DNA from: Kosmotogaceae bacterium
GTDB taxonomy: Bacteria; Thermotogota; Thermotogae; Petrotogales; Kosmotogaceae
Length of the DNA stretch: 32,538 bases
Direction: 5' to 3'
Assembly: GCA_016933635.1 (NCBI GenBank)
Contig: JAFGAP010000169.1
Location: forward strand, 1 to 32,538
The notes below the pieces were generated by a model, which searched no databases, was not told where the DNA came from, and saw nothing but the letters and a program-made list of their open reading frames with translations. The position numbers and the translations under genes were made by a program. Shown piece after piece: positions 2,423 through 20,189 of this stretch. Position 1 is the first letter of the stretch. Each line of letters begins with the position of its first letter.

Positions 2423-3298
2423 GTGATTGATGAGTCTTTTTTATCTAATACTAGAAGAGGATTTTCACTCGTCGAGTTGTTGATTGTTCTGTTCATTACT
2501 GTGGCACTCATAGCAATTATTACTCCCTTTGGAGTAAATGCTTCACGTAAGTCTTTGGCAATTTCCCTTTCAGCTGATCTCAAGAGCATTTCTAGAGCTT
2601 TTATTAACAAGATGTGTCTAGATGGAGAAGTACCGCAAGCGATGGTAGAACTCGGTAGGAATGTTGACACAACTTCTTTCGGGGCAGCATGGAAGGAGAA
2701 CCAATTTGGTGAATTAGATTGTTTTGTGTTCACTAATCGTGAGGCGAATTTTCAGTTGGTGTCAGAGATCCTGATTTCCTCAAGACAGGGAATCCCTTCA
2801 GGAATTGATGAATACGTATTTCTAGATGGTGGTCTTCAAGAGGAATCGATCAATTCACAGACTGTCTATTATGGCCTTCAAGGAGAAAAGACCGCAGATC
2901 ACCTTACTGAATTAGGTTCTACATTTGATGAGATAACCGAAGGGATCACAAATCTGATTCGAGAGTTCTTTTCAGTTCGCGGAAGCTACCCCAGAGATTG
3001 GGGAGAGTACAGATATGAGGACCTCTCTCTTGACTCTTCTTTCTGGGGAAGCGGTCCTATAGAAGGAGTAGTGTACAAGCCTGCAGGAAGACTCTTAAGA
3101 GTTAGTCCTGGCAAAGGTTACAAATTCGTATTCAGTTTTCTCGATTCGACGGAAAAGGGAGAATTGACTGAAGACTTTAATTGGGACCTAATCTACAATA
3201 TTGGGGATGCTACTGCTGATACCGATTCCTGGTTTTTTCACAGTCTGGATGGAAGGAAGATCGATGTCTCTACAATAGAAATATTAAAGATGTTGTAG
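2423..3298 (+). CDS. Type IV pilin-like (pseudopilin) protein
   Basis: A 291-residue protein with a class III signal: a short polar leader ending RRG (residues 11-13), then FSLVELLIVLF, with Glu5 of the mature form (E18) and a hydrophobic helix to about residue 35. Prepilin peptidase would cut after Gly13 and methylate the new N-terminal Phe. The globular part is not recognisable and is longer than in most major pilins, so a minor pilin or a type II-secretion or competence pseudopilin is likely. The GTG start follows AAGGAG (2408-2413) at 9 bases, and the overlapping ATG at 2421 runs directly into TGA. It has no pilus-assembly neighbours, so its machinery must be elsewhere. AT-richness and weaker codon bias than its neighbours suggest acquisition or low expression. 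Confidence 0.8.
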   Translation: MIDESFLSNTRRGFSLVELLIVLFITVALIAIITPFGVNASRKSLAISLSADLKSISRAFINKMCLDGEVPQAMVELGRNVDTTSFGAAWKENQFGELDCFVFTNREANFQLVSEILISSRQGIPSGIDEYVFLDGGLQEESINSQTVYYGLQGEKTADHLTELGSTFDEITEGITNLIREFFSVRGSYPRDWGEYRYEDLSLDSSFWGSGPIEGVVYKPAGRLLRVSPGKGYKFVFSFLDSTEKGELTEDFNWDLIYNIGDATADTDSWFFHSLDGRKIDVSTIEILKML

Positions 3299-3357
3299 CA
3301 AGCCTAGGTGAGTACTTTTGTTAGGGCTAAACAAGTTCACTTGCAGATGATGCTTAA

Positions 3358-3880
3358 ACCATGCTAATATCTTTTTTTGTTGGGTATGTGCTTTCAAGAA
3401 TTCAAGAGAAGGGATTCATGTTGCTTCTTTTCATTGAAGTTATTCTTGATATTTCGCTGTTCATTTTGACTAGCACCGTTAATAATACTTTCTGACAGTG
3501 GAAACCTAAGATCTTTCTACATTGTGCATCGAAAATGCTGCTGTCGCAAATGCCTCATCTTAACGCGTAAAGGAGCTTCTTTGTCAGAAATTAGCTTTCC
3601 TTCAGGGAAGAGACCGACATGAAAGAGGCATTGATAGAAAGTATATTTCGGTTTGGCCTCAGTGAACATCCAGAATGATCAACTGGTTGAAGTGATATCG
3701 ATTTTTCTCATCAAGAGATAGTTGCACATGTCGGGCAAGTTCGTTCATTTCGAAGGCCGGGATAAGCTGGGACGTTTTGAGCGCGGGACTTGTCGTTTCT
3801 CTCTTACCCACTATGATAGTTTTCGCCTTTGCGCAGAGATATATTATAGCCGGACTTACCAAAGGCGAGTCAAAGGATAA
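3358..3880 (+). pseudogene. Decayed MalG/UgpE-type sugar ABC permease
   Basis: A relic of the C-terminal two thirds of a carbohydrate ABC-transporter inner-membrane permease, recognised by eye. One frame (codons at 3358, 3361...) gives FFVGYVLSRI (3373-3402), a hydrophobic stretch ending ILTSTVNNTF, RSFFVRN (3571-3591) and FREETDMKEALIE (3601-3639), the last matching the EAA loop that contacts the ATPase. It is broken by TGA 3493, TAA 3568 and TAG 3592. A frame change then leads to MINW (3675), TGA 3693, SSFISKAGISWDVLSAG and FAQRYIIAGLTKG, the family's C-terminal helix and tail. Inserting one base near 3867 would restore the usual tail ending VKG and the TAA at 3878-3880. Without it the relic reads straight into the next gene. 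Family assignment is firm for the C-terminus and EAA region, weaker before 3480. Confidence 0.75.
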
Positions 3881-3899
3881 TGATTGGAGGATTTTGAGG

Positions 3900-5054
3900 A
3901 TGGAGAAAAAGCATATAACTGAGATTTTGCATCACCTTGGTGAAGAAGATCTACCTTGCGGAGCGGTAAATCCTCCCATATTTCAAACCTCTATCTTCTC
4001 TTTCAAAGGCTTCGACGAGTTCTCAACGGCCCTTTCAGATGAGACTAACCACTTTCTGTACACCAGAGGAAACAACCCTACAGTAAATATTCTCGAGGAG
4101 AAACTGGCTGCGTTAGAGCACGCGGAGAGGGCAAAGCTTTTCGGATCTGGAGTTGCGGCAATCGTGTCGAGCATTTCCGCTTTCTTGAAGAGCGGTGATC
4201 ACATTATAACTGTCAAGGACTGCTACAGCTGGACATCCACCTATGTAACCCAGTATCTGGGCAGATTTGGAGTGGAACATACTTTCGTGGAAGGAAACGA
4301 CGTGAATGAGCTTGAGGCCGCTCTTAAACCCAACACAAAGATCATTTACCTCGAAAGTCCTACTACTTTCACTTTCAAGCTGCAAAACCTGACCGAAGTA
4401 TCTTCACTGGCTAGAATAAGGGGTGTGAAGACGATAATAGACAACACCTGGGCGACTCCCATCTACCAGAATCCGATCGATTTCGGAATAGATATGGTAG
4501 TCCATTCCGCATCAAAGTATCTGGGTGGAAACAGCGATGTCGTAGGAGGAGTTGTAGCGGGATCCGATGAGGATGTCAGAAGAGTATTCGAAAAGGAGTT
4601 TCTCAACACAGGAGCCGTTCCCGATCCCTTTGCTGCCTGGCTTATTCTGAGGGGGATCAGAACTCTGCATATCCGGATGCCAGTGCATTTCCATAACGCT
4701 ATGGAGCTCAGCAAAAGGCTACAGAAGAGTGAAGCGGTCGAATCGGTTTTGTATCCGATGCTGGAAAGCTCGGAACAATATACACTTGCCAAGAAGCAGA
4801 TGAGGGGAGGATCGGGTCTCTTCTCGTTCAAATTGAAGACCAGGGATATCAACAGAATAAAGAAATTCGTGAACTCCCTAAGATTTTTCAGGAGGGCCGT
4901 CAGTTGGGGCGGATACGAAAGCCTGATCTCTCCGTACGCCGTTTCTCACAGGGATCCCGGTGACAATGTATCTCTCATAAGGATTCATGCCGGTCTGGAA
5001 GAGATTGAAGTCCTTTCGGAGGATCTCCATAAAGCAATGAAAGCGCTCATCTGA
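3900..5054 (+). CDS. PLP-dependent Cys/Met metabolism (trans-sulfuration family) enzyme
   Basis: A fold-type I aminotransferase-like enzyme of the cystathionine gamma-synthase / gamma-lyase / O-acetylhomoserine sulfhydrylase family, 384 residues, the usual length. Seen: YTRGNNPT (Tyr54, Arg56, phosphate contacts from the partner subunit), Tyr109 stacking on the cofactor, IIDNTWATP with Asp181 for the pyridine nitrogen, SASKYLGG with Schiff-base Lys206, and a C-terminal AVSWGGYESLI block. The exact reaction cannot be read from the motifs. The start is ATG 3900, with GGAGG at 3886-3890. The frame is open upstream only because the permease relic lost its stop, so a start at 3777 (TTG, no ribosome binding site) would wrongly add 41 permease residues. 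The alpha-mannosidase follows 61 bases downstream, probably in the same transcript. Confidence 0.9.
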   Translation: MEKKHITEILHHLGEEDLPCGAVNPPIFQTSIFSFKGFDEFSTALSDETNHFLYTRGNNPTVNILEEKLAALEHAERAKLFGSGVAAIVSSISAFLKSGDHIITVKDCYSWTSTYVTQYLGRFGVEHTFVEGNDVNELEAALKPNTKIIYLESPTTFTFKLQNLTEVSSLARIRGVKTIIDNTWATPIYQNPIDFGIDMVVHSASKYLGGNSDVVGGVVAGSDEDVRRVFEKEFLNTGAVPDPFAAWLILRGIRTLHIRMPVHFHNAMELSKRLQKSEAVESVLYPMLESSEQYTLAKKQMRGGSGLFSFKLKTRDINRIKKFVNSLRFFRRAVSWGGYESLISPYAVSHRDPGDNVSLIRIHAGLEEIEVLSEDLHKAMKALI

Positions 5055-5115
5055 TCTGGAAACTCGCTGATCGAATACGTATAAAGTGAATTGTGAAAAG
5101 ATTGGAGGGGGCACC

Positions 5116-8100
5116 GTGTATCATTCTATACATGAGTACTGTACCAGGCTTAGAAAGGAATTATCGGAGCTTTTTCCCTACATTGTGATTCAGAGAAGAA
5201 TGATTGGCGGATGGAGATTCAGTGATTCCGGCTCTGAAAGACCGCCCGAGAATAGCTGGAAGGAGATCTCCGCGAGCTACCAGTGGGATGAAACGAAATT
5301 CCCGGTTTGGTTAAGAACCTCCATAAAGTCTGAGGAGCCTAGCAGCGGAGAAAGACTCTACCTCAAAGCAGTTCCCGGAGGAGAAAGCCTCGTCATGATT
5401 GACGGCCGATCCTTTGGCGAGATAAATGTCTATCATCAGTTGCTGGATATAACGGAGTTTGCTGATGGGAGAAGTCACGTAATTGATATACAGACAGTCC
5501 CAAAGGGACTGTTCGGTACACACTTGCCCCATACAGTATTTGAAGGCGGCGAGCTACTCCTTCAAGATGAATCCGTATCAAGCACATATCTTGATTTTGC
5601 GGTAGCGATCGATGTTCTTGAAACGACCAGGGATGAATTCCTCTCAGAGAAGCTACTGAAAATCATCAGCGACTGCCTCTCTGAGATCGAGCTTCCAAGA
5701 TCTACTGATAAGTACTTCAAGAGCGCCCCTGACAATCCGACGCTTTTCGGGCACCATACTTATGGAAGCGTAAATAAGATCTGGCAATCCCCGAGGTTTG
5801 AGAAGTCTGAAGGGAACAGACTCACAGACAATTATCGCTGTACGGTCATGAAGGCCCGCGAGAAACTTGGGAGCAATATTGCCAGCTTAAGAAACGAGCA
5901 CAGTACGGTTGGCGCCGTGCATATTACCGGTCAGGCACACATAGACTACGCCTGGCTTTGGCCGATAGACGAGACCAAGAGGAAGATCAGAAGAACCTTT
6001 GCCAATGCAGTCAGAATGATGGAAAAGTTTCCGGGATTTGTTTATCTTCAGTCTTCGGCTCAGATGTATATGGATCTTAAGGAGAATGATTGCGATCTCT
6101 TCGAGAGGGTAAAGGAGAAGATTATACAGGGCAAATGGGAAGCGATCGGCGGAATGTGGGTTGAGAGCGACTGCAATGTCTCCAGCGCCGAATCACTTGC
6201 CAGACAGTTTCTATACGGACAAATGTTCTTCGAAGAGGAGTTCGGTATGAGATCTCCTGTGGCTTGGCTTCCAGATGTCTTTGGCTTTTCCTGGATCCTC
6301 CCCCAGATTATGAAAGAAGCGGGAATAGAATACTTTTCAACGACCAAGCTGAAATGGAATGAGAAAAATCGTTTCCCTATGGACCTTTTCTTGTGGAGGG
6401 GGCTGGACGGCAGTGAGGTAGTCTGTCACTTCTTTGCTAACCCCCTCGGGGGTTACAACGGAATGCTTAATCCAGAAGCGATTCTTGGGACATGGGAGAA
6501 CTTCCAGGATAAAAGCGTTTACGGTAAGACGATAACTACCTTTGGCTACGGTGACGGCGGCGGCGGTCCGACAGACGAGATGATTGAGTACTATGAAAGG
6601 CTCAAAGAGTATCCTGGCATGCCGAAACTGGAAATGGCCCCAATAACGGAGTATTTCAGAGAGTTGCCCCCTACTCTGGAACTACCCGTTTGGGACGACG
6701 AGCTGTACTTCGAGCTCCACAGGGGAACATATACGACCCAGGCAAGAACGAAGAAGTTGCATAAGGATGCGGAAGACGCTCTATACAGATTGGAAGTCGT
6801 AGGTGCAATGGTTTGCAGTAGAAAAAAGTATCCACTCGAAAGAGCCAGAAAACTTTGGGCGACACTTCTTCACAACGAGTTTCACGATATTCTTCCCGGT
6901 TCATCAATAAATGAAGCTCATATCCAGGCAGAAAATGAACTTAGCCAGCTAATCAGAGAAGCAAATGAAATAACCGGGACTCTACTAGACTCTGTCGGCG
7001 ATGGAAACCCTTCATTCAAGACCGTAATCAATGTTGGGTCATATCCTCAAAAAGCAATCTTGATTGACGATAGTGAAATGAATCTCTATGACGGGACAGG
7101 AAGGCTTCTGACAAGCCAGAGAACCTATGACGGAAGATTCATTTACAGCTATGATCAGGATATTCGTGGCTTTTCGAGCGAGGTTTTCGAGTGTATGGAC
7201 GGAGAGGTCGAGGAACAAGCTCTGGAAAGGGATACCGTCCTCGAAAACGACTTTTTGCGTGTTGAAGTTAACTTCGATGGAAGCATCTCCGTTTTCGATA
7301 AGCATCTTCAGAGAGAAATAACGTCAGGCCCAGGGAACTATCTCCGTGTATACAAGGACATTCCAGTTGCCTGGGATGCGTGGGATATCGACCACGACTA
7401 CAAGGTATCGGGCAAGAGACTTACGGCCCTCGAAGTGAAGACGATTGAGAGCGGTCTAGTGAGAAAGGTCGTTCAGGCAAGATATGATTATGAAGGAAGC
7501 TCTATAGTGCAGAGATACATATTGAACGCCTCTTCAAGGAGACTGGACATTGAGAACGATATTGACTGGCACACTAGAAGAACTCTTCTCAAGGCTCACT
7601 TTCCCGTAAGCATTCTTTCAAGAGAAGTCAGATGTGATCTCTCTGCGGGATACTCAAGGAGAAGCACAAGGGTTCGAAACTCCTTTGAAGATACCCGATT
7701 CGAATTTCCGGCCCATCGGTGGGTCGAATTGGAAGAGCCGGGTCTTGCAATAGCTATTCTCAACAACGGAAAGTACGGTCATTCCTGCAACGGTTCAGAT
7801 ATATCTCTTACACTTCTTAGATCGCCCATTTATCCCGATTTCTTTGCAGACGAGGGCAGGCATCGTTTCACTTACTCGTTGTTCTCTCATGATGGAGAGG
7901 ATGCTGTCAGGGTTGTCGAGGAAGCAGAGGGCCTTAACAAGGAATTGGTCAAGATCAAGGGAAGAATAGATCTTGAAGCGGGCGGGCTGCAGATCTCAAC
8001 AAGAAACCTAAAGGTGCTTGCTTTGAAGCATTCCGAGAAGAGCGGTAACATACTCCGGCTCGCTGAAGTCGAAGGAAGGCGGGGAGTAGCGAAGATCCAT

Positions 8101-8256
8101 ACTGAACTGCCCGTTGAACGATGCTGGATTTCGAGCATTCTCGAGGACAAAGTGTGCGAGCTCCCGTTAGTTGAGGGTAATGTTGAGTTCCCTTTCAGGC
8201 AGTTCGGTCTCCACACACTCAGGTTTGAGCAGAAGACAATTGAGGTGGATGAGTAA
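5116..8256 (+). CDS. GH38 alpha-mannosidase
   Basis: A glycoside hydrolase family 38 enzyme that removes alpha-linked mannose by a retaining, metal-dependent mechanism. The metal and catalytic residues are all present: HID (His275, Asp277) in the GQAHIDYAWLWP block, nucleophile Asp387 in LPDVFGF, and His590 in HNEFHDILPG. At 1046 residues it matches the long cytosolic Ams1-like type, with an N-terminal beta domain before the catalytic barrel and a beta-rich C-terminal half. There is no signal peptide, so it acts in the cytoplasm on imported oligosaccharides. GTG 5116 is preferred (GGAGGGGG 5104-5111) over the GTG at 5086, which lacks a ribosome binding site. It follows the PLP enzyme. The transporter that should feed it is represented locally only by the permease relic. 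Confidence 0.95.
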   Translation: MYHSIHEYCTRLRKELSELFPYIVIQRRMIGGWRFSDSGSERPPENSWKEISASYQWDETKFPVWLRTSIKSEEPSSGERLYLKAVPGGESLVMIDGRSFGEINVYHQLLDITEFADGRSHVIDIQTVPKGLFGTHLPHTVFEGGELLLQDESVSSTYLDFAVAIDVLETTRDEFLSEKLLKIISDCLSEIELPRSTDKYFKSAPDNPTLFGHHTYGSVNKIWQSPRFEKSEGNRLTDNYRCTVMKAREKLGSNIASLRNEHSTVGAVHITGQAHIDYAWLWPIDETKRKIRRTFANAVRMMEKFPGFVYLQSSAQMYMDLKENDCDLFERVKEKIIQGKWEAIGGMWVESDCNVSSAESLARQFLYGQMFFEEEFGMRSPVAWLPDVFGFSWILPQIMKEAGIEYFSTTKLKWNEKNRFPMDLFLWRGLDGSEVVCHFFANPLGGYNGMLNPEAILGTWENFQDKSVYGKTITTFGYGDGGGGPTDEMIEYYERLKEYPGMPKLEMAPITEYFRELPPTLELPVWDDELYFELHRGTYTTQARTKKLHKDAEDALYRLEVVGAMVCSRKKYPLERARKLWATLLHNEFHDILPGSSINEAHIQAENELSQLIREANEITGTLLDSVGDGNPSFKTVINVGSYPQKAILIDDSEMNLYDGTGRLLTSQRTYDGRFIYSYDQDIRGFSSEVFECMDGEVEEQALERDTVLENDFLRVEVNFDGSISVFDKHLQREITSGPGNYLRVYKDIPVAWDAWDIDHDYKVSGKRLTALEVKTIESGLVRKVVQARYDYEGSSIVQRYILNASSRRLDIENDIDWHTRRTLLKAHFPVSILSREVRCDLSAGYSRRSTRVRNSFEDTRFEFPAHRWVELEEPGLAIAILNNGKYGHSCNGSDISLTLLRSPIYPDFFADEGRHRFTYSLFSHDGEDAVRVVEEAEGLNKELVKIKGRIDLEAGGLQISTRNLKVLALKHSEKSGNILRLAEVEGRRGVAKIHTELPVERCWISSILEDKVCELPLVEGNVEFPFRQFGLHTLRFEQKTIEVDE

Positions 8257-8439
8257 ATGACTAGATTTTCAGTGCGAAGAACAATGTCGTAAACCCCATT
8301 TCGTGAGATGATTAGTGAAGTGAATAGCCCCATTTCTGATAGAGTAACTCAGTTTAGCTAGCCAGAGAGGACTTCTTCTGATCTCTTTAAGATGTATCGG
8401 GGTAAACATATTTAGCATCTTGATTGTAGTTCATTACAG
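8257..8439. other. Intergenic region, nothing recognised
   Basis: This stretch follows the mannosidase stop and has stops in all frames. No convincing terminator, promoter or RNA structure was seen. It may be the far end of the eroded minus-strand gene next to it. Confidence 0.4.
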
Positions 8440-8881
8440 TTAACCAGAAAGAGTGAGCAGAGACTTGAGATCTGCAGGGCCAAATCCATTATCGATGGGG
8501 CGGCTTCTTACTCTACAAACAGCCGCTGCATTTCAGAACTAACTGGCAATTTGATCTCGTATTGACCTGCTGCAAAATCCTCCTTTTCGACATTTCCATG
8601 AATGATTTTGTTTCAATATGCTTCCAATTTATGTTCTCGGGAAAGGCATAGCGATTTAGAGACAACAAGTACAATTTATGTTGGCGATCTATAAGAATGG
8701 GGTATTAGCTCGCGAGACTGAACCGGTCTTCGAAAAGAAATGTTAGGTCCTACTCAGTAAGCCTTGCATACGTTGGCAGATAGCGGTACTCTAATGGATC
8801 TTTCTTAGAGGTAAGCATCCTTCTGTTCTCGGCAAGAGAGCTGATATAATCCAGAAGAGAGGGAATTAGTCGGAAGCGCAC
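8440..8881 (-). pseudogene. Decayed coding sequence, possibly GH31-like
   Basis: The minus strand carries a long protein-like reading with scattered defects. From 8881 downward one frame reads VRFRLIPSLLDYISSLAENR, then EYRYLPTYARLTE, a TAG, DLTFLFEDRFSLAS, a TAA, and YPILIDRQHKLYL to NINWKHIETKSFMEM. A one-base shift leads to KEDFAAGQYEIKLPV and a TAA at 8508-8510. In the third frame IDNGFGPADLKSLLTLSG ends at TAA 8440-8442. The order RxRLIP...FLFxD...A...LYL...W...LPV resembles the end of the GH31 barrel and its following beta domain, but this is weak. The 5' end abuts or runs under the hydrolase start, so the N-terminal part is gone. The coding relic is likely; the family is uncertain. Confidence 0.5.
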
Positions 8882-8901
8882 AGCTTCGAGGAGGTCCCGA
8901 G

Positions 8902-10071
8902 ATGAAGATGAGGGCCGGCTATTCAACTATTATTGCGATCTTTGGTATTCTTATGGGAGTGATCGCGATTCTGAACTACTTGTTTCCGCTGAATCACATG
9001 CCTTTACCCGAAGGCCCTCATGAAGTTGGATTTCGTTCCTATGAAGTGTCTAATCCTCAACCGACGAGTGTTGCCGAAATCAATTTCTCCGATCCTGGTA
9101 AGATCCGTCTTGACATCTGGTACCCCGCAGGAGATGTTTCCGAAGCACTAAGAAAGGGATGGATAGACAACGATCCTCTCGTTTTTCAGGGCTTCGAAAT
9201 AATGACCGGGTATCCCAGGGAACTTTTCGAACATATCTATCGGGTGAAAACGAATTCATTTGTCGAAGCGCCTCCCGTGGAAGACTCGTCGATCTGGCCA
9301 ATAATGATCCTGCTTCTCGGATGGTCTTCAATAAGTGAATTACATACTTCTCTTGCAGAATCACTGGCGAGTGCGGGCTATTTTGTGGTAAGTATAGAAC
9401 ACCCGGGAGCCTGCGCGGTGGTTTCATTTTCGAACGGGGATGTACACTACTTCCTTGGTAATGATCTTCTTGAGAAATTGCCTGAAGGCACGAGAGAGTC
9501 AAAAGTTGGAATGCTTTCTAAATACCTTGCCCGCGATATAGATTATGCTATCGAATACCTTCAAAGAATGAACTGCGATCCATCTTCGGATTTCTTCGAA
9601 AGGATTAATATGAATAATATCGGACTGTATGGACACTCAGGAGGAGGCGCGGTAGCCATTCAGTATGCGTTAGTTAACAGCGATGTTCCCATGGTTCTGG
9701 CCGATCCGACTCTCGAGGGTTTTTCAACACGAGAACTCGACACTGCGTTTTCAAATGAGATCCTGCTAATGACTACTGAAGAATGGGAGTCCGGAATAAA
9801 CGGGGATTACTCTTCATCAATTGCGAAAGAGAGAAACGAGCACTTCTACAACCTTCGCATCAGCGATATGAGACATGTGGATTTCGCGATGGTAAGAAAT
9901 CTTTCGCCGCTTACGTTCTTCTTCGGCGAGACTGGAAGGTTCATGAACGATGAAGATGCAATTAGAAATCTTGACAGTGCGGTGAAGCTCTTCTTTGACA
10001 GTGTTTTCTTTGGCGGAGAAATCGAAGAGTTATTTGCTCTTTCTGAGTCCGTTCCGGAATTCTCTATGTGA
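8902..10071 (+). CDS. Membrane-anchored alpha/beta hydrolase (PAF-acetylhydrolase-like)
   Basis: A 389-residue serine hydrolase of the platelet-activating-factor acetylhydrolase / dienelactone hydrolase type. An N-terminal hydrophobic helix (residues 8-28, uncleaved-looking) should tether it with the catalytic domain outside. The nucleophile elbow GHSGGG gives Ser246, LADP gives candidate acid Asp268, and RHVDF gives candidate base His325, in the expected order. The LDIWYPAG stretch near residue 70 is the usual first strand of this family. The ATG start has GAGGAGG (8888-8894) at 7 bases. It is a single gene converging on ispD with 22 bases between them, and no clear terminator was seen. Its natural ester or lipid substrate cannot be read from the sequence. 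Confidence 0.85.
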   Translation: MKMRAGYSTIIAIFGILMGVIAILNYLFPLNHMPLPEGPHEVGFRSYEVSNPQPTSVAEINFSDPGKIRLDIWYPAGDVSEALRKGWIDNDPLVFQGFEIMTGYPRELFEHIYRVKTNSFVEAPPVEDSSIWPIMILLLGWSSISELHTSLAESLASAGYFVVSIEHPGACAVVSFSNGDVHYFLGNDLLEKLPEGTRESKVGMLSKYLARDIDYAIEYLQRMNCDPSSDFFERINMNNIGLYGHSGGGAVAIQYALVNSDVPMVLADPTLEGFSTRELDTAFSNEILLMTTEEWESGINGDYSSSIAKERNEHFYNLRISDMRHVDFAMVRNLSPLTFFFGETGRFMNDEDAIRNLDSAVKLFFDSVFFGGEIEELFALSESVPEFSM

Positions 10072-10093
10072 GAAGATCGGTCTTTTCTTCGCT

Positions 10094-10780
10094 TCATAAA
10101 CCCTTGTTGATCAGCAGTTCTGCCATATCGAAGTCGAAAGGGGTCGTGATCTTCGGATTTGGAGCGATCGAGTTTACAGTGATCACCTTTCCACCAGATC
10201 TGACGAAAAGCTGTACGTCATCCGTAGACGAGAGTATGCTTTCTTCAGCCGCCTTTATGTGAGCCTCAAGTATTTCATCATATGGAAAAGTTTGTGGAGT
10301 CTCTGCCAGCCTTAAATGGTTCCTTTCCGGCACATCCAAAACATCGCTATTCTCGACCAGATAGACTGTATCGTTTACTCTCTCCGTTACTGCTACCCCA
10401 TTTCCTGGAGCAACAAGCCGAAGGAGTTCTGGAATCTGGTTTCGTGAAAAGAAGGGTCTGGCAGCGTCGTGAATCATTATTGTTTCTGGACTGATTCTCC
10501 TGCAGAAGAGCAACCCATTATATACTGACTCCTGCCGGCTCTCTCCGCCGGGGACAACCATGACCGAGTTCATCCCCCTCTTTTGAAGTATTTCCTTTGC
10601 TTTGTCAATCCAATCTTTGTGAACAACCAATACCGTGAAGTAAATAAAGTCAGATCCGTGGAATATCTCCACGGATCTGACAAACATCTCTTTTCCACCG
10701 AGAGTCATGAACTGCTTTGGAAGGGACGACTTCATTCTGCGTCCGGTTCCGCCTGCAACTATGATTGCTCCGGTCTTCAT
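10094..10780 (-). CDS. ispD: 2-C-methyl-D-erythritol 4-phosphate cytidylyltransferase
   Basis: The third step of the MEP isoprenoid pathway: it transfers CMP from CTP to methylerythritol phosphate. The 228-residue cytosolic protein opens with the nucleotide-binding loop AGGTGRRMKSSLPKQF, in which Arg15 and Lys22 have the spacing of the E. coli catalytic pair Arg20/Lys27. IMIHDAARPF and a later AETPQTF block are also typical. The ATG overlaps the stop of the upstream DUF1015 gene as ATGA, so translation is coupled. It is the last gene of the minus-strand operon. No ispF is seen nearby, and the protein is too short for an IspDF fusion. Confidence 0.95.
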   Translation of the reverse strand: MKTGAIIVAGGTGRRMKSSLPKQFMTLGGKEMFVRSVEIFHGSDFIYFTVLVVHKDWIDKAKEILQKRGMNSVMVVPGGESRQESVYNGLLFCRRISPETIMIHDAARPFFSRNQIPELLRLVAPGNGVAVTERVNDTVYLVENSDVLDVPERNHLRLAETPQTFPYDEILEAHIKAAEESILSSTDDVQLFVRSGGKVITVNSIAPNPKITTPFDFDMAELLINKGL

Positions 10781-12018
10781 TTCAGTAAATGAACGACCAG
10801 CCCACTTCGCAGTTTTGGCTCGAACCAGGTTGATTTTGGCGGCATGATTTTTCCCTCATCGGCGACGGCAAGAAGCTCTTCCATCGAGGTGGGAAACATT
10901 GAAAATGCAACTGCCCAGCCATTGGTTATTCTGTTTTCGAGAGCCTTTAGACCCCGAATGCCTCCAACGAAATCAATCCTCGAGTCCTTTCTCGGATTAT
11001 CGATTCCGAGAATAGGACTCAGAAGGTTCTTCTGAAGTATATCAACGTCTAGACTCGAGACCGGATCATTCTCGTCAAATGTACCCTTTCCAGCGGTGAG
11101 TCTGTACCACCTACCCATAAGACACATGCCGAACTCATGCCTCTTAGCCGGTTCATACGGACTTTCAGGAGCTTCCGCGACTTCAAAGACCTGCCCAACC
11201 TTCTCAAGGAACTCGTTTTCGCTCATACCGTTCAGATCCTGAACCACCCTGTTGTAGCCCATAATCTTCAGATGGGTATGTGGAAAGGCAACTGCCATGA
11301 AGAAGTTGTATTCTTCATTACCAGTATGTCCTGGATTGCTTTCCTTCAGGAGTTCTCTGACTCTCGAGGAAGAGGCCGCCCGGTGATGACCGTCGGCGAT
11401 GTACATGCAGTTGATCTTCTTAAATGCTTCTCGCAGCTCTTCAATTCTATCTTGTTCTTTCACCGCATAGAGCCTGTGTTCGACGTCGTTTTCATCGATT
11501 ACTCGCATAGAAAGGGGTAGTTCCTTGCAAAAGCTCTGTAGGAGGGTTTCGAGCTCCTCGTTTGATCTGAATGTCAGGAAAACCATTCCGGTATTCGCGT
11601 TTACCGTTCTTATATGTTTTATCCTATCTTCTTCCTTATCCTGTCTTGTGAGCTCATGTTTCTTGATCAAGTCTTTCTGATACTCATCAACACTTGCTCC
11701 GCCGACTACTCCGATCTGGATGTGGTCCTTCATCTTTTGCCAATATATGTAATACAGTGGCTCTTCTTCCTGCACCAGGACTCCAATTTGAAGCATCGTT
11801 TCAAAATTCTCTCTTGCCTTCTCGTACACTAGATTGCTGTAATGGTCTGACTCATTTGGCAGATCGATCTCAGCCCTGATAACATGCATGAAGCTCTCGG
11901 GACTTCTCCCGATCTCTCTGGCCTCTTCAAATGAGACAACATCATAAGGGGGGCAATTGACCTTCTGCTCGATTCCTTCGGCAGGTCTCACCGCCCTAAA
12001 TGGTCTAAAATCAGACAA
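10777..12018 (-). CDS. DUF1015 family protein
   Basis: A 413-residue soluble protein of the widely conserved DUF1015 family. Its opening FRPFRAVRP...NCPPYDVV and its central YIADGHHRAAS (DGHHR at 209-213) are family hallmarks, as is the conserved KKHELT...DRIKHIRT block (119-138). The DGHHR motif recalls ParB-like nucleotide-handling folds, so an enzymatic role, perhaps a small-molecule kinase, is conceivable, but the function is not established here. It begins 3 bases after ybeY ends and overlaps ispD by 4 bases. The context (RNA maturation, then isoprenoids) does not itself reveal a role. Confidence 0.85.
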   Translation of the reverse strand: MSDFRPFRAVRPAEGIEQKVNCPPYDVVSFEEAREIGRSPESFMHVIRAEIDLPNESDHYSNLVYEKARENFETMLQIGVLVQEEEPLYYIYWQKMKDHIQIGVVGGASVDEYQKDLIKKHELTRQDKEEDRIKHIRTVNANTGMVFLTFRSNEELETLLQSFCKELPLSMRVIDENDVEHRLYAVKEQDRIEELREAFKKINCMYIADGHHRAASSSRVRELLKESNPGHTGNEEYNFFMAVAFPHTHLKIMGYNRVVQDLNGMSENEFLEKVGQVFEVAEAPESPYEPAKRHEFGMCLMGRWYRLTAGKGTFDENDPVSSLDVDILQKNLLSPILGIDNPRKDSRIDFVGGIRGLKALENRITNGWAVAFSMFPTSMEELLAVADEGKIMPPKSTWFEPKLRSGLVVHLLK

Positions 12019-12021
12019 CTT

Positions 12022-12450
12022 CTATCCCTCCTCAACAAAACGTTTATAATAATCTCTTTGGAGACTGAATATCTCTTCTCCTTCATCGTCGTATCCCTCG
12101 TGCGTATGGCCGAGGATGTGGAGAACACCGTGTATCAATATGTAGTAGAGCTCTTCTTCAAAGGAGTTGCTAAACTCACCGGCCTGTTCTGAGATTCTCT
12201 CAAGCGAGATTACTATATCACCTATTATCTCCTCTTCCAACCCATACTGGAAAGAGAGGACGTCCGTTGGTTCATCTCTGTGTCTGAATTCCTTGTTTAT
12301 GCTTCGAATTTCAGAGTCATCTGTGAAAAGGAAATTCAATATTCCTATCTCTCTTTCTCCGAGCTCTGCCTTGATTACCTTTTCTACAATACTAGATATT
12401 CTACTCTCTTCTATCTTCTTCGATGTCTTGTTTTGAATTTGAATCTCCAC
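12022..12450 (-). CDS. ybeY: Endoribonuclease YbeY / rRNA maturation factor
   Basis: A zinc-dependent single-strand RNase needed for 16S rRNA 3'-end maturation and ribosome quality control. At 142 residues it is family-length. The metal site is HGVLHILGHTH, with His107, His111 and His117 at the same spacing as E. coli His114/118/124. The usual GYDH ending is GHTH here, but the third ligand is kept. The upstream DEPTDVLSF motif is typical. The start is GTG, with AAGGTGG about 9 bases before it, lying inside the 3' end of the HD gene (50-base overlap). Following PhoH and the HD phosphodiesterase is the classic bacterial arrangement. Confidence 0.93.
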   Translation of the reverse strand: MEIQIQNKTSKKIEESRISSIVEKVIKAELGEREIGILNFLFTDDSEIRSINKEFRHRDEPTDVLSFQYGLEEEIIGDIVISLERISEQAGEFSNSFEEELYYILIHGVLHILGHTHEGYDDEGEEIFSLQRDYYKRFVEEG

Positions 12451-13885
12451 TAATGGATACCACCTTTTCAGTAGCTTCTTTTGGATACTCGATTCTGGGC
12501 TGGTTCATATTCATGAGGACCCGAGTAAACGCTTCAATGATCTTCTCGAGATCGTCAAGATCGAGGCCGCTCTGGTCAAGCTGCCTCTCGTTATAGATTC
12601 CACTGACGATTTCTTCTACGAGTTCTTGGGTCTTTGCAGGTGTAGGTTTTTTGATGCTCTTGAATGCAGCCTCCACCGAATCGGCCAGCATAATTATCCC
12701 AGACTCTTTGAATTGCGGTTTGGGCCCCGGATATCTGAAATCGTCGCTTCTCTCTTCCTGCCCAATATTCTTAGCTTTGTGAAAGAAGAACTTCTTGACT
12801 CTCGTTCCATGGTGTTCTTTAATAACGTCTTCAACGAGAAGCGGAAGTCTGTATTTTCTCGCCTGCTCAACTCCCTGTTTCACATGTTCATTTATCACAA
12901 GGTTTGACATCGAGGGAGTGAGGTTGTCGTGAGGATTCGTTCCCTCCTGCTGATTCTCGGTGAAGTACTGGGGCCGTTTGGACTTCCCGATGTCATGAAA
13001 ATACGATGCGACCCTTGCCAGTATTGAATTGGCTCCGATTCTCTCGGCCGCTGCTTCTGAAAGATTTGCAAGAGAGATGCTGTGGTAGTACGTTCCCGGC
13101 GCATAAATCGACAGGTTTTTCAGAAGTGGGTGAGAGAGATTGCCCAGTTCAAGTAGGCCGGTGTTGGAGTATATTCTGCTTGCATATTCGAGATAGGGCA
13201 TGATTCCTATAACAATTACTGACGATAAGATCGGGTTAGCAAAAGCAATCAGAAGATCCACTGCGTCTATGGCCTCACCCTGAAGAGACATCCTAATCGC
13301 GTTAATCGCCACGAAAATCAAACTGACTTCGAATCCCGCTCTTGCTATTTTAATCCTTCTCTCTATAGCTCTTGTCGTGAGGGCAGTTGCCAATACGACT
13401 ACCGACAACAATATGAAGGTTTCCAAAGAGTTGTCAAGATTTGCAGATGCGAGAAAGGACATGAACAGACCGCTGCCGATGCCTTCCTGATAGCCAATCA
13501 ACACGGTAACCATCGAGACACTTAAGAAGATGGGTGTCATTTCCGGCAGAAGCGCCTCATCTCCCAGAGATGGGACGAAGGAGTTCACGAAAACACCGAA
13601 GGACACTACGGAAAAGAAGGTTATTCTATATGCGCTATGAAGATTGAAGTATCTGTTGCTTCTTACGGATCTCTCAGCAAAGATGTACCATAGAATCGCC
13701 GATCCAACGAAATACAGAAAAGGCTTTGAGGGAAGCGAAAGGAACGGCAGTCTGTTTAGCAACGCAAGGAACACAGGGAAGACTATGAAATTAGTGAGAT
13801 CCTTTATGTTCAGAAGTCTCTCGAGGGGGAACTGGACCTTTGAGAGATCACTATTTTTCAGTTTTTTCTTCTCTCTCATATTCAT
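12401..13885 (-). CDS. Multi-TM HD-domain phosphodiesterase (PgpH-like)
   Basis: A probable cyclic-di-AMP phosphodiesterase of the PgpH group. The N-terminal half (about 30-230) is a hydrophobic bundle of roughly six or seven helices, followed by a cytoplasmic HD domain (about 250-450). That domain contains YYHSISLANLSE (His268), FHDIGK (His297/Asp298), NPHDNLTPSMS (His319) and KEHHGT (His358/His359), the metal-site pattern of the family. At 494 residues it lacks the long extracytoplasmic 7TMR-HDED sensor of Listeria PgpH, so any external sensing must differ. Its start lies 35 bases inside phoH, and ybeY starts inside its end. The c-di-AMP assignment follows family knowledge and was not demonstrated. 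A second ATG at 13879 is possible. Confidence 0.85.
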   Translation of the reverse strand: MNMREKKKLKNSDLSKVQFPLERLLNIKDLTNFIVFPVFLALLNRLPFLSLPSKPFLYFVGSAILWYIFAERSVRSNRYFNLHSAYRITFFSVVSFGVFVNSFVPSLGDEALLPEMTPIFLSVSMVTVLIGYQEGIGSGLFMSFLASANLDNSLETFILLSVVVLATALTTRAIERRIKIARAGFEVSLIFVAINAIRMSLQGEAIDAVDLLIAFANPILSSVIVIGIMPYLEYASRIYSNTGLLELGNLSHPLLKNLSIYAPGTYYHSISLANLSEAAAERIGANSILARVASYFHDIGKSKRPQYFTENQQEGTNPHDNLTPSMSNLVINEHVKQGVEQARKYRLPLLVEDVIKEHHGTRVKKFFFHKAKNIGQEERSDDFRYPGPKPQFKESGIIMLADSVEAAFKSIKKPTPAKTQELVEEIVSGIYNERQLDQSGLDLDDLEKIIEAFTRVLMNMNQPRIEYPKEATEKVVSISGDSNSKQDIEEDRRE

Positions 13886-14828
13886 CGTAGGCCTTTATAA
13901 TGTCTTTCACCAGAGGATTTCTTACAACATCCTGGTCTGTTAGATAGGAGAAGCCGATTGTGGGGACCGATCTCAAGACTCGCTGCACAACGACAAGTCC
14001 AGATCCGGAATCCCTTGGAAGATCAATCTGAGTAATGTCTCCGGTGACAACTACCCTCGATCCAAAACCAATTCTTGTCAGGAACATCTTCATCTGTTGA
14101 TAGGTCGTATTCTGAGCCTCATCCAGAATTATGAACGAGTTGTTCAGAGTCCTTCCCCTCATATATGCAAGTGGAACGACCTCAATTATCGAGCTCTCCC
14201 TATAATAGGTAAGCTTCTCGGCCGGTATCATCTCCATTAGCGCATCGTAAAGAGGTCTCAAATAGGGATCTACTTTGTCTAGAAGTGTGCCCGGAAGATA
14301 TCCCAGTTTCTCTCCGGCTTCGACTGCGGGCCGAGTGAGGATTATTCTCTGGACTTTGCCGGATTTCAGGAAGTCAACGGCCATGGCAACTGCAAGATAC
14401 GTCTTTCCCGTCCCCGCCGGGCCGATGGAAAAGACTAGCTCTCTCTCTTTCATTGTTTCCATGTAGTTCTTTTGCCCGATCGTCTTGGGTCTTATTCTAT
14501 TGGAAAGTAATGTCGTTTCCTTTACTTCGTTGTAGACTCCCTTGAAACTATCTCCATCCTCATCGTGCTGCAGGTGTTGATCTACAATATACTCGAATTC
14601 TCTCCACTCGACTAGATGGCCGTCTCTGCTCATTTGGACCAGTTCATCAACAATCTTTCCAGCTATGTCAATCCCATTACCGTCTTCGCCCTTTATCCAG
14701 ATTTCATCTCCGATTATAGAGATCCTTACTTCGAGTTTCTTCTGAATATACTTCGCTTTTCGATCGTACTCTCCGAAAAGCTCGGCTACTTCAACCCCCG
14801 TGGGAAGACTGAGCTTTCTTACCGCCAA
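13851..14828 (-). CDS. PhoH-like ATPase
   Basis: A cytosolic P-loop NTPase of the PhoH family, associated with YbeY and RNA metabolism in many bacteria. The N-terminal 65 residues resemble a KH-like RNA-binding fold. Walker A is GPAGTGKT (136-143) and Walker B is IILDEAQNTT, followed by the sensor VVTGDITQIDLP. At 325 residues it is family-length. I take the TTG at 14828 as the start because GGAGGTG (14834-14840) precedes it, and MAVRKLSLP fits the family N-terminus. A TATAAT at 14851-14856 suggests its own promoter besides read-through from the upstream regulator gene. Confidence 0.93.
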   Translation of the reverse strand: MAVRKLSLPTGVEVAELFGEYDRKAKYIQKKLEVRISIIGDEIWIKGEDGNGIDIAGKIVDELVQMSRDGHLVEWREFEYIVDQHLQHDEDGDSFKGVYNEVKETTLLSNRIRPKTIGQKNYMETMKERELVFSIGPAGTGKTYLAVAMAVDFLKSGKVQRIILTRPAVEAGEKLGYLPGTLLDKVDPYLRPLYDALMEMIPAEKLTYYRESSIIEVVPLAYMRGRTLNNSFIILDEAQNTTYQQMKMFLTRIGFGSRVVVTGDITQIDLPRDSGSGLVVVQRVLRSVPTIGFSYLTDQDVVRNPLVKDIIKAYDEYEREEKTEK

Positions 14829-14850
14829 AAGAACACCTCCTACTCCAGAG

Positions 14851-14879
14851 ATTATACATTAATATTCTTGGATAAGGAG
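14851..14879 (-). promoter_or_regulatory. Candidate internal promoter before phoH
   Basis: On the minus strand a perfect TATAAT (14851-14856) lies 22 bases upstream of the TTG start, with CTCCTT as a poor -35 at 17 bases (14874-14879). The string TGTATAATCTC is shared with the promoter of the upstream regulator gene, which supports both. Confidence 0.5.
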
Positions 14880-14898
14880 GTTTTGAAGGATCGCTATT

Positions 14899-16215
14899 TC
14901 ACTCGCCGTCGACTTCAGCAGATTGTCCTTTTATGTAGCTGTTGGCCTCTGCAAGAAGATCTCGTATCCTTCTAGTTGTCAGTCCGAATTCTTTTGAAAG
15001 CTCGTTCATATCGTTTCCAAGGACCTCTGAACGCTGCACCAAAAGTTCCTGCGAAACACTTTTGTACACCTCTTGAAGGAAGTCTTTATATGTTGTACCA
15101 TTCACCATTCTTGCCACCATTGCTTCTTCGGCAAGAAGCTTGACGTTTTTCGACATCGAGGAGTTTACAGAAGCTTGAACAACATCGTTCACAGCCAGGT
15201 ATTCTTCGATCATGTTGATCAGTTCTCTCACATTCCCCGGATAGCTGTAGGAAAGAAATCGTTCCTTAAGATCTTGAGGAATGTTCTCAAACTTCACGAG
15301 ATATCCCTTTTTCTCAAGAATCTCATCAAAGATCTGGGGGATATCGGTCTTCCTCTCCCTCAGAGGCGGTAAGTCGACCTTTACGGCCGATAGTCTGTAT
15401 CTAAGATCATTTCTTATAGCAGCGTCGTCATATCTGTTGGTCGCGGTGATGAAGCGGACGTCGACTTTTATGGGCTTGGTGGCGCCAATCTTGAAGAATT
15501 CTCGGTTCTCGGTTATCGCTAGAATCTTCGCCTGGAGATTTAGAGGCATATCTCCGATCTCGTCGAGAAATAGCGTTCCGTTATTGGCCTGCTCTATAAG
15601 CCCTACCTTCTCGGCAGCCGCGCCTGTGAAAGCTCCTTTTTTGTAACCGAACAGCTCACTCTCGAGTAGGTTCTCCGGGATAGCCGCGCAGTTTATTGAA
15701 TAGAAGGGTCTAGAGCCCCTGGGGGAGAGTTTTGCAATAATCTCGGCAAGAAGATTCTTACCAGATCCGGTCTCTCCAAGAATCATTATTGAACCATCGT
15801 AGAACATCGAAAGAACGATCATTTTCTTCATCTGCAGTACCCTGTTGCTGTTTCCAATGATCTTATCTAGATTCTCGTCGATACTAGTCGTGATTTCCTG
15901 CACTATTTGTCTCGGGCTCTTGTAACTGCTCAAAACACGATAATAACCCTTGAATTCCTGACGCTCTTCCGAATAACCTCTAATAATGAAAGCTCTAATT
16001 GGATTGTTATTGATGAGAATAATATTGGTAAATGCAAAAATCCAGTCATCAAGGACATCTTCGCTATACTTGCTCGCATCTATGAAAAGTATCGTCGGCA
16101 TCTCCTTCCCCAGGCCGACAAGGTAGTCAAAATCAACGTCAAAAAGGCTTTCAAAATACATTTCGCATTGCATGGATTCAAGGTTTTCACCAACCATGAT
16201 TTTTCTGTAGAGCAA
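14899..16215 (-). CDS. Sigma-54-interacting AAA+ transcriptional regulator
   Basis: A bacterial enhancer-binding protein of 438 residues. The N-terminal 115 residues look like a degenerate receiver-type sensor (ILFIDASKY but no normal acidic pocket). The AAA+ domain has Walker A GETGSGKN (147-154, Asn replacing the usual Glu), the sigma-54-contacting GAFTGA loop (194-199) intact, Walker B FLDEIGD and TATNRY. The Fis-like C-terminus has a helix-turn-helix (SKEFGLTTRRIRDLL). The start is a TTG at 16215 preceded by GGGGGTG. It is the first gene of the operon running to ispD, 70 bases before phoH. No well-spaced -24/-12 promoter was found in the window, so its target genes are probably elsewhere. 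The signal it senses is unknown. Confidence 0.9.
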   Translation of the reverse strand: MLYRKIMVGENLESMQCEMYFESLFDVDFDYLVGLGKEMPTILFIDASKYSEDVLDDWIFAFTNIILINNNPIRAFIIRGYSEERQEFKGYYRVLSSYKSPRQIVQEITTSIDENLDKIIGNSNRVLQMKKMIVLSMFYDGSIMILGETGSGKNLLAEIIAKLSPRGSRPFYSINCAAIPENLLESELFGYKKGAFTGAAAEKVGLIEQANNGTLFLDEIGDMPLNLQAKILAITENREFFKIGATKPIKVDVRFITATNRYDDAAIRNDLRYRLSAVKVDLPPLRERKTDIPQIFDEILEKKGYLVKFENIPQDLKERFLSYSYPGNVRELINMIEEYLAVNDVVQASVNSSMSKNVKLLAEEAMVARMVNGTTYKDFLQEVYKSVSQELLVQRSEVLGNDMNELSKEFGLTTRRIRDLLAEANSYIKGQSAEVDGE

Positions 16216-16250
16216 AATTACACCCCCAAATGTGAAGAGTAGTCTTTGAG

Positions 16251-16279
16251 ATTATACAATGCTATTCAGCACGAACAGT
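16251..16279 (-). promoter_or_regulatory. Candidate promoter of the regulator-to-ispD operon
   Basis: The minus strand has a perfect TATAAT (16251-16256) 35 bases before the TTG start, with a weak -35 (ACTGTT, 17-base spacing). The form is sigma-70-like rather than sigma-54, so the activator gene does not appear to depend on its own sigma factor. Confidence 0.5.
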
Positions 16280-16352
16280 AAAAGCCGACTACTGTGAAAA
16301 ATGCGAGGGCGAAGAGGATCTTACAATATGATGTCCGCGTTTCAGCCTTCTT

Positions 16353-16382
16353 TTGTAATAAATTTAGTTGATACTATATAAT
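16353..16382 (+). promoter_or_regulatory. Promoter of the phosphosugar mutase gene
   Basis: TTGTAA (16353-16358) and a perfect TATAAT (16377-16382) are 18 bases apart, putting the predicted start near 16389, just before the GAGGAGG ribosome binding site at 16395. The leader is therefore very short. It is divergent from the regulator promoter. Confidence 0.7.
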
Positions 16383-16406
16383 TAGAGCATAGAAGAGGAG
16401 GTTAAG

Positions 16407-18137
16407 ATGGACTATAGAAACCGTTACAGAAAGTGGCTCGAGAGCCCGACTATCGATGAGAATACTCGCGGCGAATTGATATCGATTAAAGACGATGAAA
16501 CGGAGATAAAGGATCGATTCTACAAGGAGCTCGAGTTTGGAACCGCTGGCTTGAGAGGCAAGTTGGGCGCTGGTGACAACCGGATGAACAAATACACTGT
16601 TGCGAGGGCGACACAGGGTCTGGCGAATTTCATTCTTTCAGGAGACCCCTCTCACAGAGAAAAGGGTGTGGTTATTGCCCACGACTCGAGGCATATGTCG
16701 AAAGAGTTTGCAGTGATCTCGGCAGCCGTTCTTGCGGGAAATGGAATAAGAGTCTATCTCTTTGATGACATTAGGCCTACTCCGCTCCTCTCTTTTTCTG
16801 TACTCCAGCTTTCCACTGTGGCGGGGATAATGATTACCGCAAGCCACAACCCCAAGGAATACAATGGTTACAAGCTCTACTGGGATGACGGCGCTCAGGT
16901 CCTTCCCGAGATTGCTGATGAAGTCTATACTCAAATGCGTAAAACAGAGTTATTCGTGGGGTCAAAGACGATTCCGCTTGAAATGGCGAGAAAGAAGGGT
17001 TTGATTGTAGAAGTGGGCAAGGAGCTCGATGATCGATACATTTCAAAAGTCCTGTCCCTAACTTTGAGAGATTCAGAAGACGAGCTGGACAAGTCAATGA
17101 GGATAGTTTACACGCCCTTGAACGGTACTGGAAACATTCCTGTGCGTCGTGTACTGGGTGAGAGAGGATTCAAGAACGTTTTTGTAGTTCGTGAACAGGA
17201 ATGGCCCGATCCCGATTTTACGACGGTAGGGTATCCAAACCCTGAAGACACGAAGGCCTTCGCTCTTGCCAAAGAACTCGGTTTTGAAAAAGACGCTCAT
17301 ATCCTGTTTGCAACAGATCCCGATGCAGATAGACTGGCAGTAATGGTCAGAGATGGCGATGATTACGTCGCTTTGAATGGCAATCAAACCGGAGCGCTCC
17401 TTGTCAACTACCTTCTTCTTTCGATGAGAGAGAAGGGCTTGCTTCCGAACAACGGATTCATTGTGAAATCAATTGTAACGGGAGACATGGCGAAGGTAAT
17501 CGCCGAAGGATTTGGTGTCAGGACCTACGAGGCGCTCACCGGCTTCAAGAACATCTGCGGTAAGGCGCTCGATATTGAAGAACGAGGAGAGGGGAGATTC
17601 ATTTTCGGTTATGAAGAGAGTATCGGATACGTAGCCGGGAATTTCGTAAGAGACAAGGATGCCGTATCTTCCTCAATGCTTTTATGTGAAATGGCGGCCT
17701 ATTACCTTAAGACAGGAAAGTCCCTTCTGGATGTCCTGGAGGAACTCTTTGCAAAATATGGAGCCTTCTCCGAAAAACAGATTTCGATTGCTCTTGAAGG
17801 AGTTTCGGGTCAGAAAAGAGTCGAAAGAATAATGAAGGAGTACCGGAAGAGCTACCCTTCCGAAATCGATAGTTCGAAACTTACTCATTATCTCGACTTT
17901 TTAAGCGGTGTTGATACTGACATTATTAGCGGGAATAAATCAGAGACTGGAATCCCCGTTTCAAACGTGATCAAGTTCTTTTTCGACGACGGTTCCTGGT
18001 ATGCCGTTAGACCTTCCGGAACTGAGCCGAAGCTCAAAATATATATCTACTCAAGATCGAAAAATAAAGAGGAAGCTTTGTCAAAGGTAGACAGTATAGA
18101 AAAAATTGTTCTAGGGAGAATTGAGTCAGTACAGTAG
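16407..18137 (+). CDS. Phosphoglucomutase / phosphomannomutase family protein
   Basis: An alpha-D-phosphohexomutase interconverting sugar 1- and 6-phosphates through a phosphoserine enzyme. The phosphoserine is Ser146 in TASHNPKEYNGYK, the Mg site is DPDADR (Asp304, Asp306, Asp308), the sugar-specificity loop is GYEESIGY, and the C-terminal phosphate-binding loop is RPSGTEPKLKIY. At 576 residues it belongs to the long PgcA/PGM2-like group, and glucose 1-phosphate/6-phosphate is the most likely pair. That would supply glucose 1-phosphate for polymer synthesis such as the GH57 branching pathway in this window. The ATG has GAGGAGG (16395-16401) and a good promoter. The membrane-protein gene follows after an intercistronic hairpin. 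Confidence 0.94.
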   Translation: MDYRNRYRKWLESPTIDENTRGELISIKDDETEIKDRFYKELEFGTAGLRGKLGAGDNRMNKYTVARATQGLANFILSGDPSHREKGVVIAHDSRHMSKEFAVISAAVLAGNGIRVYLFDDIRPTPLLSFSVLQLSTVAGIMITASHNPKEYNGYKLYWDDGAQVLPEIADEVYTQMRKTELFVGSKTIPLEMARKKGLIVEVGKELDDRYISKVLSLTLRDSEDELDKSMRIVYTPLNGTGNIPVRRVLGERGFKNVFVVREQEWPDPDFTTVGYPNPEDTKAFALAKELGFEKDAHILFATDPDADRLAVMVRDGDDYVALNGNQTGALLVNYLLLSMREKGLLPNNGFIVKSIVTGDMAKVIAEGFGVRTYEALTGFKNICGKALDIEERGEGRFIFGYEESIGYVAGNFVRDKDAVSSSMLLCEMAAYYLKTGKSLLDVLEELFAKYGAFSEKQISIALEGVSGQKRVERIMKEYRKSYPSEIDSSKLTHYLDFLSGVDTDIISGNKSETGIPVSNVIKFFFDDGSWYAVRPSGTEPKLKIYIYSRSKNKEEALSKVDSIEKIVLGRIESVQ

Positions 18138-18138
18138 A

Positions 18139-18160
18139 CCGGCCTGTTTAGAAACGCCGG
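18139..18160 (+). other. Intercistronic hairpin
   Basis: CCGGC (18139-18143) pairs with GCCGG (18156-18160), and GTT pairs with AAC inside, giving an 8-bp stem with a CT bulge and TAGA loop. It starts right after the mutase stop and ends 3 bases before the next gene's GGAGG. With no T tract it is more likely an mRNA-processing or translation-tuning element than a terminator. Confidence 0.4.
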
Positions 18161-18175
18161 ACTGGAGGCAGCAAA

Positions 18176-18952
18176 CTGAAAATCTCTAAAACCCTTATTA
18201 TGACTTTCATTGCCCTGTGGGCTCTTTCTTACATACTAGGTGTTATTTTAACCGAAAGCTTTGTGGCAGATCACGGTGGATATCTCTATCGTGCAGTTTC
18301 TCGAAGTCTTCTTTGGCTTATCATAATCGTAATCCATTTTCAATTTGTTAGAGAGCATGAGAAGGAAGATTTCGACAGCGTTTGGCTCTTTTCGCTCTAC
18401 GTTTCGTTCACTTTCTGGATCGTCTTTTCGGCAGCAGGAATTAGGAGTATTGCCTTGATCCTGTCGATTCCGATCTTGTTTCTTTCGGCCCAGTTTTTAA
18501 GGCTAGGTAGAGCCAGTTATGGCGAAATACTGAAGCACATCAAATCGAGCTATCTTGGAAGCCTTTCCATTTCCTTCAGTCTCGTTATTCTGGTTTGTAG
18601 CCTCTCTTTATTCTTTTCCTCCGAAGCCGCTTCGGTGCTGCTTCTCTTTTTGCTTCTAATTCCGGCAATTATGCTTACCCATTTCAAGGCAGACCTTCTT
18701 TCGGGAGGTGTTTTCGCCTGGTTCTCATTTGCTGTGGGATTCGTAAATCTCGAACTCTCAAGTTACATAACGGTCGCCGGTTTCTCCCTGGGAGCGATCT
18801 TCCTCCTCCTTGTGGGTTTTTCGATCATTATTGTTAAGGAGGACCCATCTAGAAAGGTCTTCGCGACCGTTAATCCCGGGGAACCGATAGATGAGGCCGA
18901 ACTCAGGATAGAATTAGATCAAGAAGAGACTAGATCGAAATCTCGCCCCTGA
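18176..18952 (+). CDS. Hypothetical 8-TM membrane protein, probable CTG start
   Basis: Not recognised. A predicted 8-helix inner-membrane protein of about 258 residues: helices begin near the N-terminus (TLIMTFIALW), then at SLLWLIIIV, the VWLFSLYV stretch, ALILSIPILFL, SLSISFSLV, LLLFLLLIPAIM, FAWFSFAVGF and GAIFLLLVGF. It ends in an acidic, Glu-rich cytoplasmic tail. The first ATG (18200) has no ribosome binding site. In frame upstream, CTG at 18176 sits exactly 7 bases after GGAGG (18164-18168) and adds the basic N-terminus KISK, so I start there. It follows the sugar mutase and its last 23 bases overlap the convergent PhzF-like gene. No transport or enzyme motif is visible. Confidence 0.7.
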   Translation: MKISKTLIMTFIALWALSYILGVILTESFVADHGGYLYRAVSRSLLWLIIIVIHFQFVREHEKEDFDSVWLFSLYVSFTFWIVFSAAGIRSIALILSIPILFLSAQFLRLGRASYGEILKHIKSSYLGSLSISFSLVILVCSLSLFFSSEAASVLLLFLLLIPAIMLTHFKADLLSGGVFAWFSFAVGFVNLELSSYITVAGFSLGAIFLLLVGFSIIIVKEDPSRKVFATVNPGEPIDEAELRIELDQEETRSKSRP

Positions 18953-19733: not shown

Positions 19734-19749
19734 TGGACCACTCCTCCTT

Positions 19750-20189
19750 GCTCTTATCGAAAACAGAATGTTCTTCAGAGCAAATTCTACACTTTTCTCT
19801 TTCAGTCCTCAAATGCGTCCATCTTCAGGAGTAAGTAGGAGCTAATGAAGCTGATAATTAAGTGTTCTGTGTTTTCCAGTTTGCGTCTCGAAACTCTCAA
19901 CTGCTCTCTTCGAACAGTTATGAATAGATAACATACCTTCTTTCAATTCTTCGCTTGTAGGCGAAGCAGACGTTTCTACACCGCTCTTCACAGACTAATC
20001 TCAAAGGATAACGAATTGATAACCTTGGAAAGGGACAAGGGAAAAACTTTCGCTCTTAAAGCGTGACTACCGAGTTCGGTTAAGTTTTGCGCTTAAAGTG
20101 CTTCCCAAAAGCTAATAACTCAACTGAATGACAGGCGGTAACCAAGTAGAGCCTTGAAAGGCGATCTTCAGGAATTTTTCATAATCGGA
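19750..20189. other. Long intergenic region before the iron operon
   Basis: No gene is supported in roughly 440 bases, as stops occur in all frames. Two possible structures were seen: CTTCGC/GCGAAG arms around TTGTAG (about 19949-19966), and an AAAACTT/AAGTTTT closing stem (20043-20049 and 20082-20088) that encloses two 4-bp hairpins. The PhzF-like gene's promoter should lie near its left end, but no good one was found. Confidence 0.4.

Follow-up and report, generated by a model that had tools for sequence, protein, structure and literature searches.

Several known kinds of feature are relevant to the locus described here. MalG-type carbohydrate ABC permeases (PF00528, BPD_transp_1) can be taken as functional when they have an intact frame with an EAA loop and when MalF and a binding protein are encoded alongside. 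Pseudogenes and gene remnants in bacterial operons that are being lost carry stops, frameshifts and AT drift, and their partner genes are missing. When repeats or paralogous sequences recombine and cause a deletion, whatever lay between the two homologous copies is lost and one hybrid is left. Our locus resembles all of these: it holds a relic that is colinear with amino acids 67-279 of a syntenic MalG and nearly identical to it in the tail, it has stops, frameshifts, AT drift and missing partner genes, and it may likewise be a hybrid left after the DNA between two homologous copies was lost. Our literature search found nothing specific to this locus.

The window, meaning the whole stretch of DNA analysed, comprises 32,538 nucleotides from a Kosmotogaceae bacterium (GCA_016933635.1, contig JAFGAP010000169.1, positions 1-32,538, forward strand). 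The draft genome consists of 260 contigs and is about 80% complete; genes missing from it may be unassembled, so that a failure to find them there counts as weak evidence of loss. The locus is made up of the following features.

2423-3298, + strand: type IV pseudopilin-like gene (Pfam N_methyl), left neighbour of the relic
3299-3356, + strand: possible start of the relic (malG nt ~196-256), which aligns solely as an extension of the stronger part
3357-3740, + strand: old malG relic, colinear with malG nt ~256-699 (sub-block alignment scores against shuffles)
3741-3880, + strand: young malG tail, the last ~47 codons of MalG (change point at 3741)
3886-3890, + strand: GGAGG, likely ribosome-binding site of the PLP gene, kept (direct reading; identical bases in the nearest relative, G001)
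3900-5054, + strand: intact PLP enzyme gene (Cys_Met_Meta_PP), next in the ancestral operon (95% amino acid identity to G001)
5086-8256, + strand: intact GH38 alpha-mannosidase-type gene, next in the ancestral operon, with an altered 3' end
8229-8505, no strand assigned: scar of a second deletion, where four genes of the relatives are absent

A first-pass annotation of this DNA had proposed a decayed MalG-type permease between the pseudopilin and PLP genes, and alignment confirms that such a relic is real. Positions 3357-3880 align in order to the malG of an intact operon found at the same place in close relatives. At the DNA level, the 442 bases of 3299-3740 score 428 against malG, compared with 158 ± 19 (maximum 222) for dinucleotide shuffles, and a frameshift-aware protein alignment of this upstream part scores 77 (shuffles 31 ± 4, maximum 48). 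Because both scores exceed the shuffle maxima, a chance match is excluded. The sub-blocks 3357-3418, 3419-3594 and 3595-3740 are each significant alone (scores of 174, 171 and 143, where the highest shuffles reach 89, 151 and 123), and 3299-3356 alone is not (69 against 61 ± 8.5). The frameshift-aware alignment to the syntenic MalG of G001 is colinear, its path crosses 2 stops and about 8 frameshifts, and the 3357-3740 part has suffered a net loss of about 60 bases relative to malG. The permease pieces picked out in the first-pass annotation are indeed present in MalG order with matching spacing, and the malG stop at 3878-3880, the right end of the relic, agrees with the end given there. It counted four stops and at least one frame change; the best path does not require four stops, and the frameshifts are many rather than one. 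The piece TDMKEALIE, called EAA-loop-like, is merely loosely so, because about 47 bases of the EAA-loop region have been deleted.

A Pfam search of the separate relic pieces gave no permease match in any of them, the pieces being too short. Descent from another permease of the draft genome was considered and rejected, as the best other PF00528 match scores 230 compared with 428 for the operon malG. We also looked for the two outcomes that would contradict a relic, namely no permease match at all or an unrelated intact gene at this position in close relatives; neither was found, and the relatives carry an intact malG. The frame is interrupted by stops and frameshifts and the EAA region is deleted, and neither MalF nor a binding protein, whose local absence had been remarked on before, is present in the window or in the draft genome. 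In the relic stretch there is no RNA element, and promoters and terminators are no more than expected by chance. For annotation purposes, 3357-3880 is better labelled a pseudogene than intergenic sequence.

At the syntenic place in G001, a member of the same genus with about 90% DNA identity over window positions 8506-20000, the genes for a ROK repressor, a binding protein, MalF, MalG, the PLP enzyme and a GH38 mannosidase stand in a row. The same ROK-SBP-MalF-MalG-PLP-GH38 order is found in G002, G005, G007 and G009, and G015, from another genus, has ROK-SBP-MalF-MalG-PLP; an intact syntenic malG is thus present in six genomes of the family. In G009, a recent copy of ~175 bp of malG (nt ~620-795) lies between the pseudopilin gene and the ROK gene of the intact operon (L087:7345-7519) and is about 98% identical to the malG of that genome. 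This fragment is a precedent which shows that a second malG copy can land in cis at this place. As an ortholog or ancestor of the window relic it was rejected, being recent, independent and from a different malG segment.

The relic is composed of two parts of clearly different age. Identity to the G001 malG is 63% over 438 aligned bases of 3299-3740 and then 95.4% over 152 bases from 3741, with a GC content of 0.387 in 3299-3740 and 0.464 in the tail. The best change point falls exactly at 3741 (log-likelihood ratio 36.4, compared with a maximum of 8.2 in 500 permutations), and the uniform divergence expected of a single gene decaying in place is therefore not seen. Within the tail, the first five differences from G001 are all silent third codon positions, and the last ~20 bases contain one replacement and a one-base deletion that shifts the frame near the end. 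In the neighbouring PLP and GH38 genes, 16% and 26% of the fourfold sites are different from G001, so neutral decay since the split from G001 should leave about 74% identity or more; the 63% of the upstream part is well under this expectation (p ~1e-7) and the tail is well above it. At sites diagnostic for G001 against the G009 group, the upstream part is about evenly divided (14:13) while the tail sides with G001 (10:1), which gives a one-sided Fisher p of about 0.025 when calculated by hand from these counts. Taken as a whole, the substitution patterns show that the malG to which the tail belonged was still working until recently and that the upstream part had been dead far longer. The two cannot have stayed one gene in the meantime, and with a backbone 90% identical to G001 the tail is a case of ordinary vertical inheritance. 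The earlier description of the stretch as the decay of a real gene consequently holds for its MalG type, but not for a single gene: old, AT-drifted sequence makes up the first ~440 bases and a recently functional end follows from 3741.

The junction between the two parts is in register, with the alignment continuing at malG nt ~677-700 and a shift of no more than 1-2 bases, and the match at the junction begins with just 11 identical bases. A random deletion would seldom give such a junction, which favours recombination between two malG copies. The remainder of the sugar-uptake operon was probably excised at this join. By a somewhat better than even chance, in our judgement, an old dead malG copy recombined homologously with the live malG and deleted the DNA between them, leaving a chimera before PLP-GH38. 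The ancestor would have carried an already dead malG copy downstream of the pseudopilin gene, followed by an intact ROK-SBP-MalF-MalG-PLP-GH38 operon. A crossover between the dead copy and the live gene near malG nt 680-700 would then have looped out ROK, SBP, MalF and the 5' five-sixths of MalG, and its product would be the old relic fused in register to the young tail in front of PLP-GH38. That the old copy lay in cis and that one single deletion took place are both steps that we infer. ROK, SBP, MalF and the 5' part of MalG were not found elsewhere in the 80%-complete draft genome. None of the relatives seen still holds the old relic together with an intact operon, and the corresponding flank, by the pseudopilin or the repressor gene, has no malG trace above shuffles in G001, G002, G004, G005, G006 or G007.

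The pseudopilin gene to the left (2423-3298) has about 64-65% nucleotide identity to the G001 and G009 pseudopilins, compared with 90% for the backbone; its synonymous sites are saturated against G001, where its orientation is flipped. At the far left of the window, a ~214-bp element (15-228) lies upstream of a C69 peptidase gene. On the contig that carries the operon in G009, both C69 genes have this element upstream of them, and it is present on the operon-bearing contigs of G005 and G002 as well. The interval from the NHL gene to the pseudopilin gene in G001 (L085:6258-6507) contains short stretches with matches at 77-89% on several contigs of the genome analysed here, a pattern suggestive of a dispersed repeat.

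The pseudopilin gene is as divergent as the relic beside it, and this would also fit an import of the whole left flank, in which DNA of a divergent lineage, bearing the pseudopilin gene and a malG in decay, crossed over with the native gene at malG nt ~700 and replaced the left flank and the front of the operon. Identity to the relatives is about 63-65% for both pseudopilin and relic but about 90-95% throughout the sequence right of 3741, and the C69 type to the left occurs near the operon in G009 and not at this place in G001. Such a replacement would, however, require a second crossover and a donor in which the same dead malG occupied this position, and no such donor turned up among the relatives searched; moreover, the pseudopilin is saturated between most members of the genus, so its divergence is not specific to import. 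We regard this reading as possible but distinctly less probable than a deletion between two malG copies. A misjoin at 3741, in which a contig ending in a malG relic was joined to one with the real malG at shared sequence, has to be considered for a draft of this fragmentation and completeness, and a longer repeat could have collapsed even though the match at the junction starts with so few identical bases. Yet the missing middle genes are in no other contig, and a separate, repeat-less deletion right of GH38 indicates that the operon is eroding anyway, which makes an assembly artefact improbable.

Two further readings invoke selection on the tail. The 1-base deletion places the MalG tail and PLP in one open frame (3696-5054, with a possible TTG start at 3777), so that the last transmembrane helix would precede the enzyme. 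One malG might then have died long ago and decayed in place, with its 3' end selected as a leader of PLP or as an in-frame N-terminal membrane extension of it. Up to the final few, however, the tail's ~40 residues are all identical to those of functional MalG, which suggests constraint as MalG; PLP has kept its own ribosome-binding site and start; an in-frame status has a one-in-three chance of arising after any frameshift; and the reading leaves unexplained why the upstream part is equally distant from the G001 and G009 lineages. We consider this improbable, slightly more so than a misjoin. A related reading, in which the tail was co-opted so that the frameshift fused its helix to the racemase-like PLP enzyme, giving a membrane-anchored protein kept by selection, appears very unlikely indeed. 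Gene callers may nevertheless include the MalG tail in the PLP gene and report a fused protein.

On the right side of the relic, the PLP enzyme scores above the NCBIfam cut-off for bifunctional alanine/glutamate (L-alanine/L-glutamate) racemase, and going by this assignment its gene may be kept for cell-wall amino acids rather than for sugar use. An import of the PLP-GH38 flank was considered and is unnecessary, as its 90% identity to G001 equals that of the backbone. Similarity to the relatives ends at 8228-8229, right of GH38, and resumes with G001 at 8506. In G001 and G009, GH38 is followed by ROK kinase, GmhA-like, GSU2086-type and HldE-like genes; these are absent from the window at 8229-8505, and no other part of the draft genome was found to carry them. 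The operon is being eroded from left and right, with just PLP and GH38 remaining, both of them open.

A sugar-uptake operon has here been caught during its loss, and sister genomes offer intact versions with which to compare it. If the deletion between two malG copies is the true reading, a dead gene copy acted as a recombination partner and decided what was deleted. In comparison with a MalG-type permease (PF00528), the relic is 5'-truncated, carries stops and frameshifts, has lost the EAA core and cannot encode a permease. It differs from usual bacterial pseudogenes in having two clearly different ages within one remnant and an in-register junction between them. In contrast to known deletions by recombination, one partner would have been a copy that had decayed beforehand, and the event is one that we infer rather than observe. 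The pseudogene with its deletion scar is nevertheless a feature of a known kind, a product of ordinary genome decay with an unusually readable scar.
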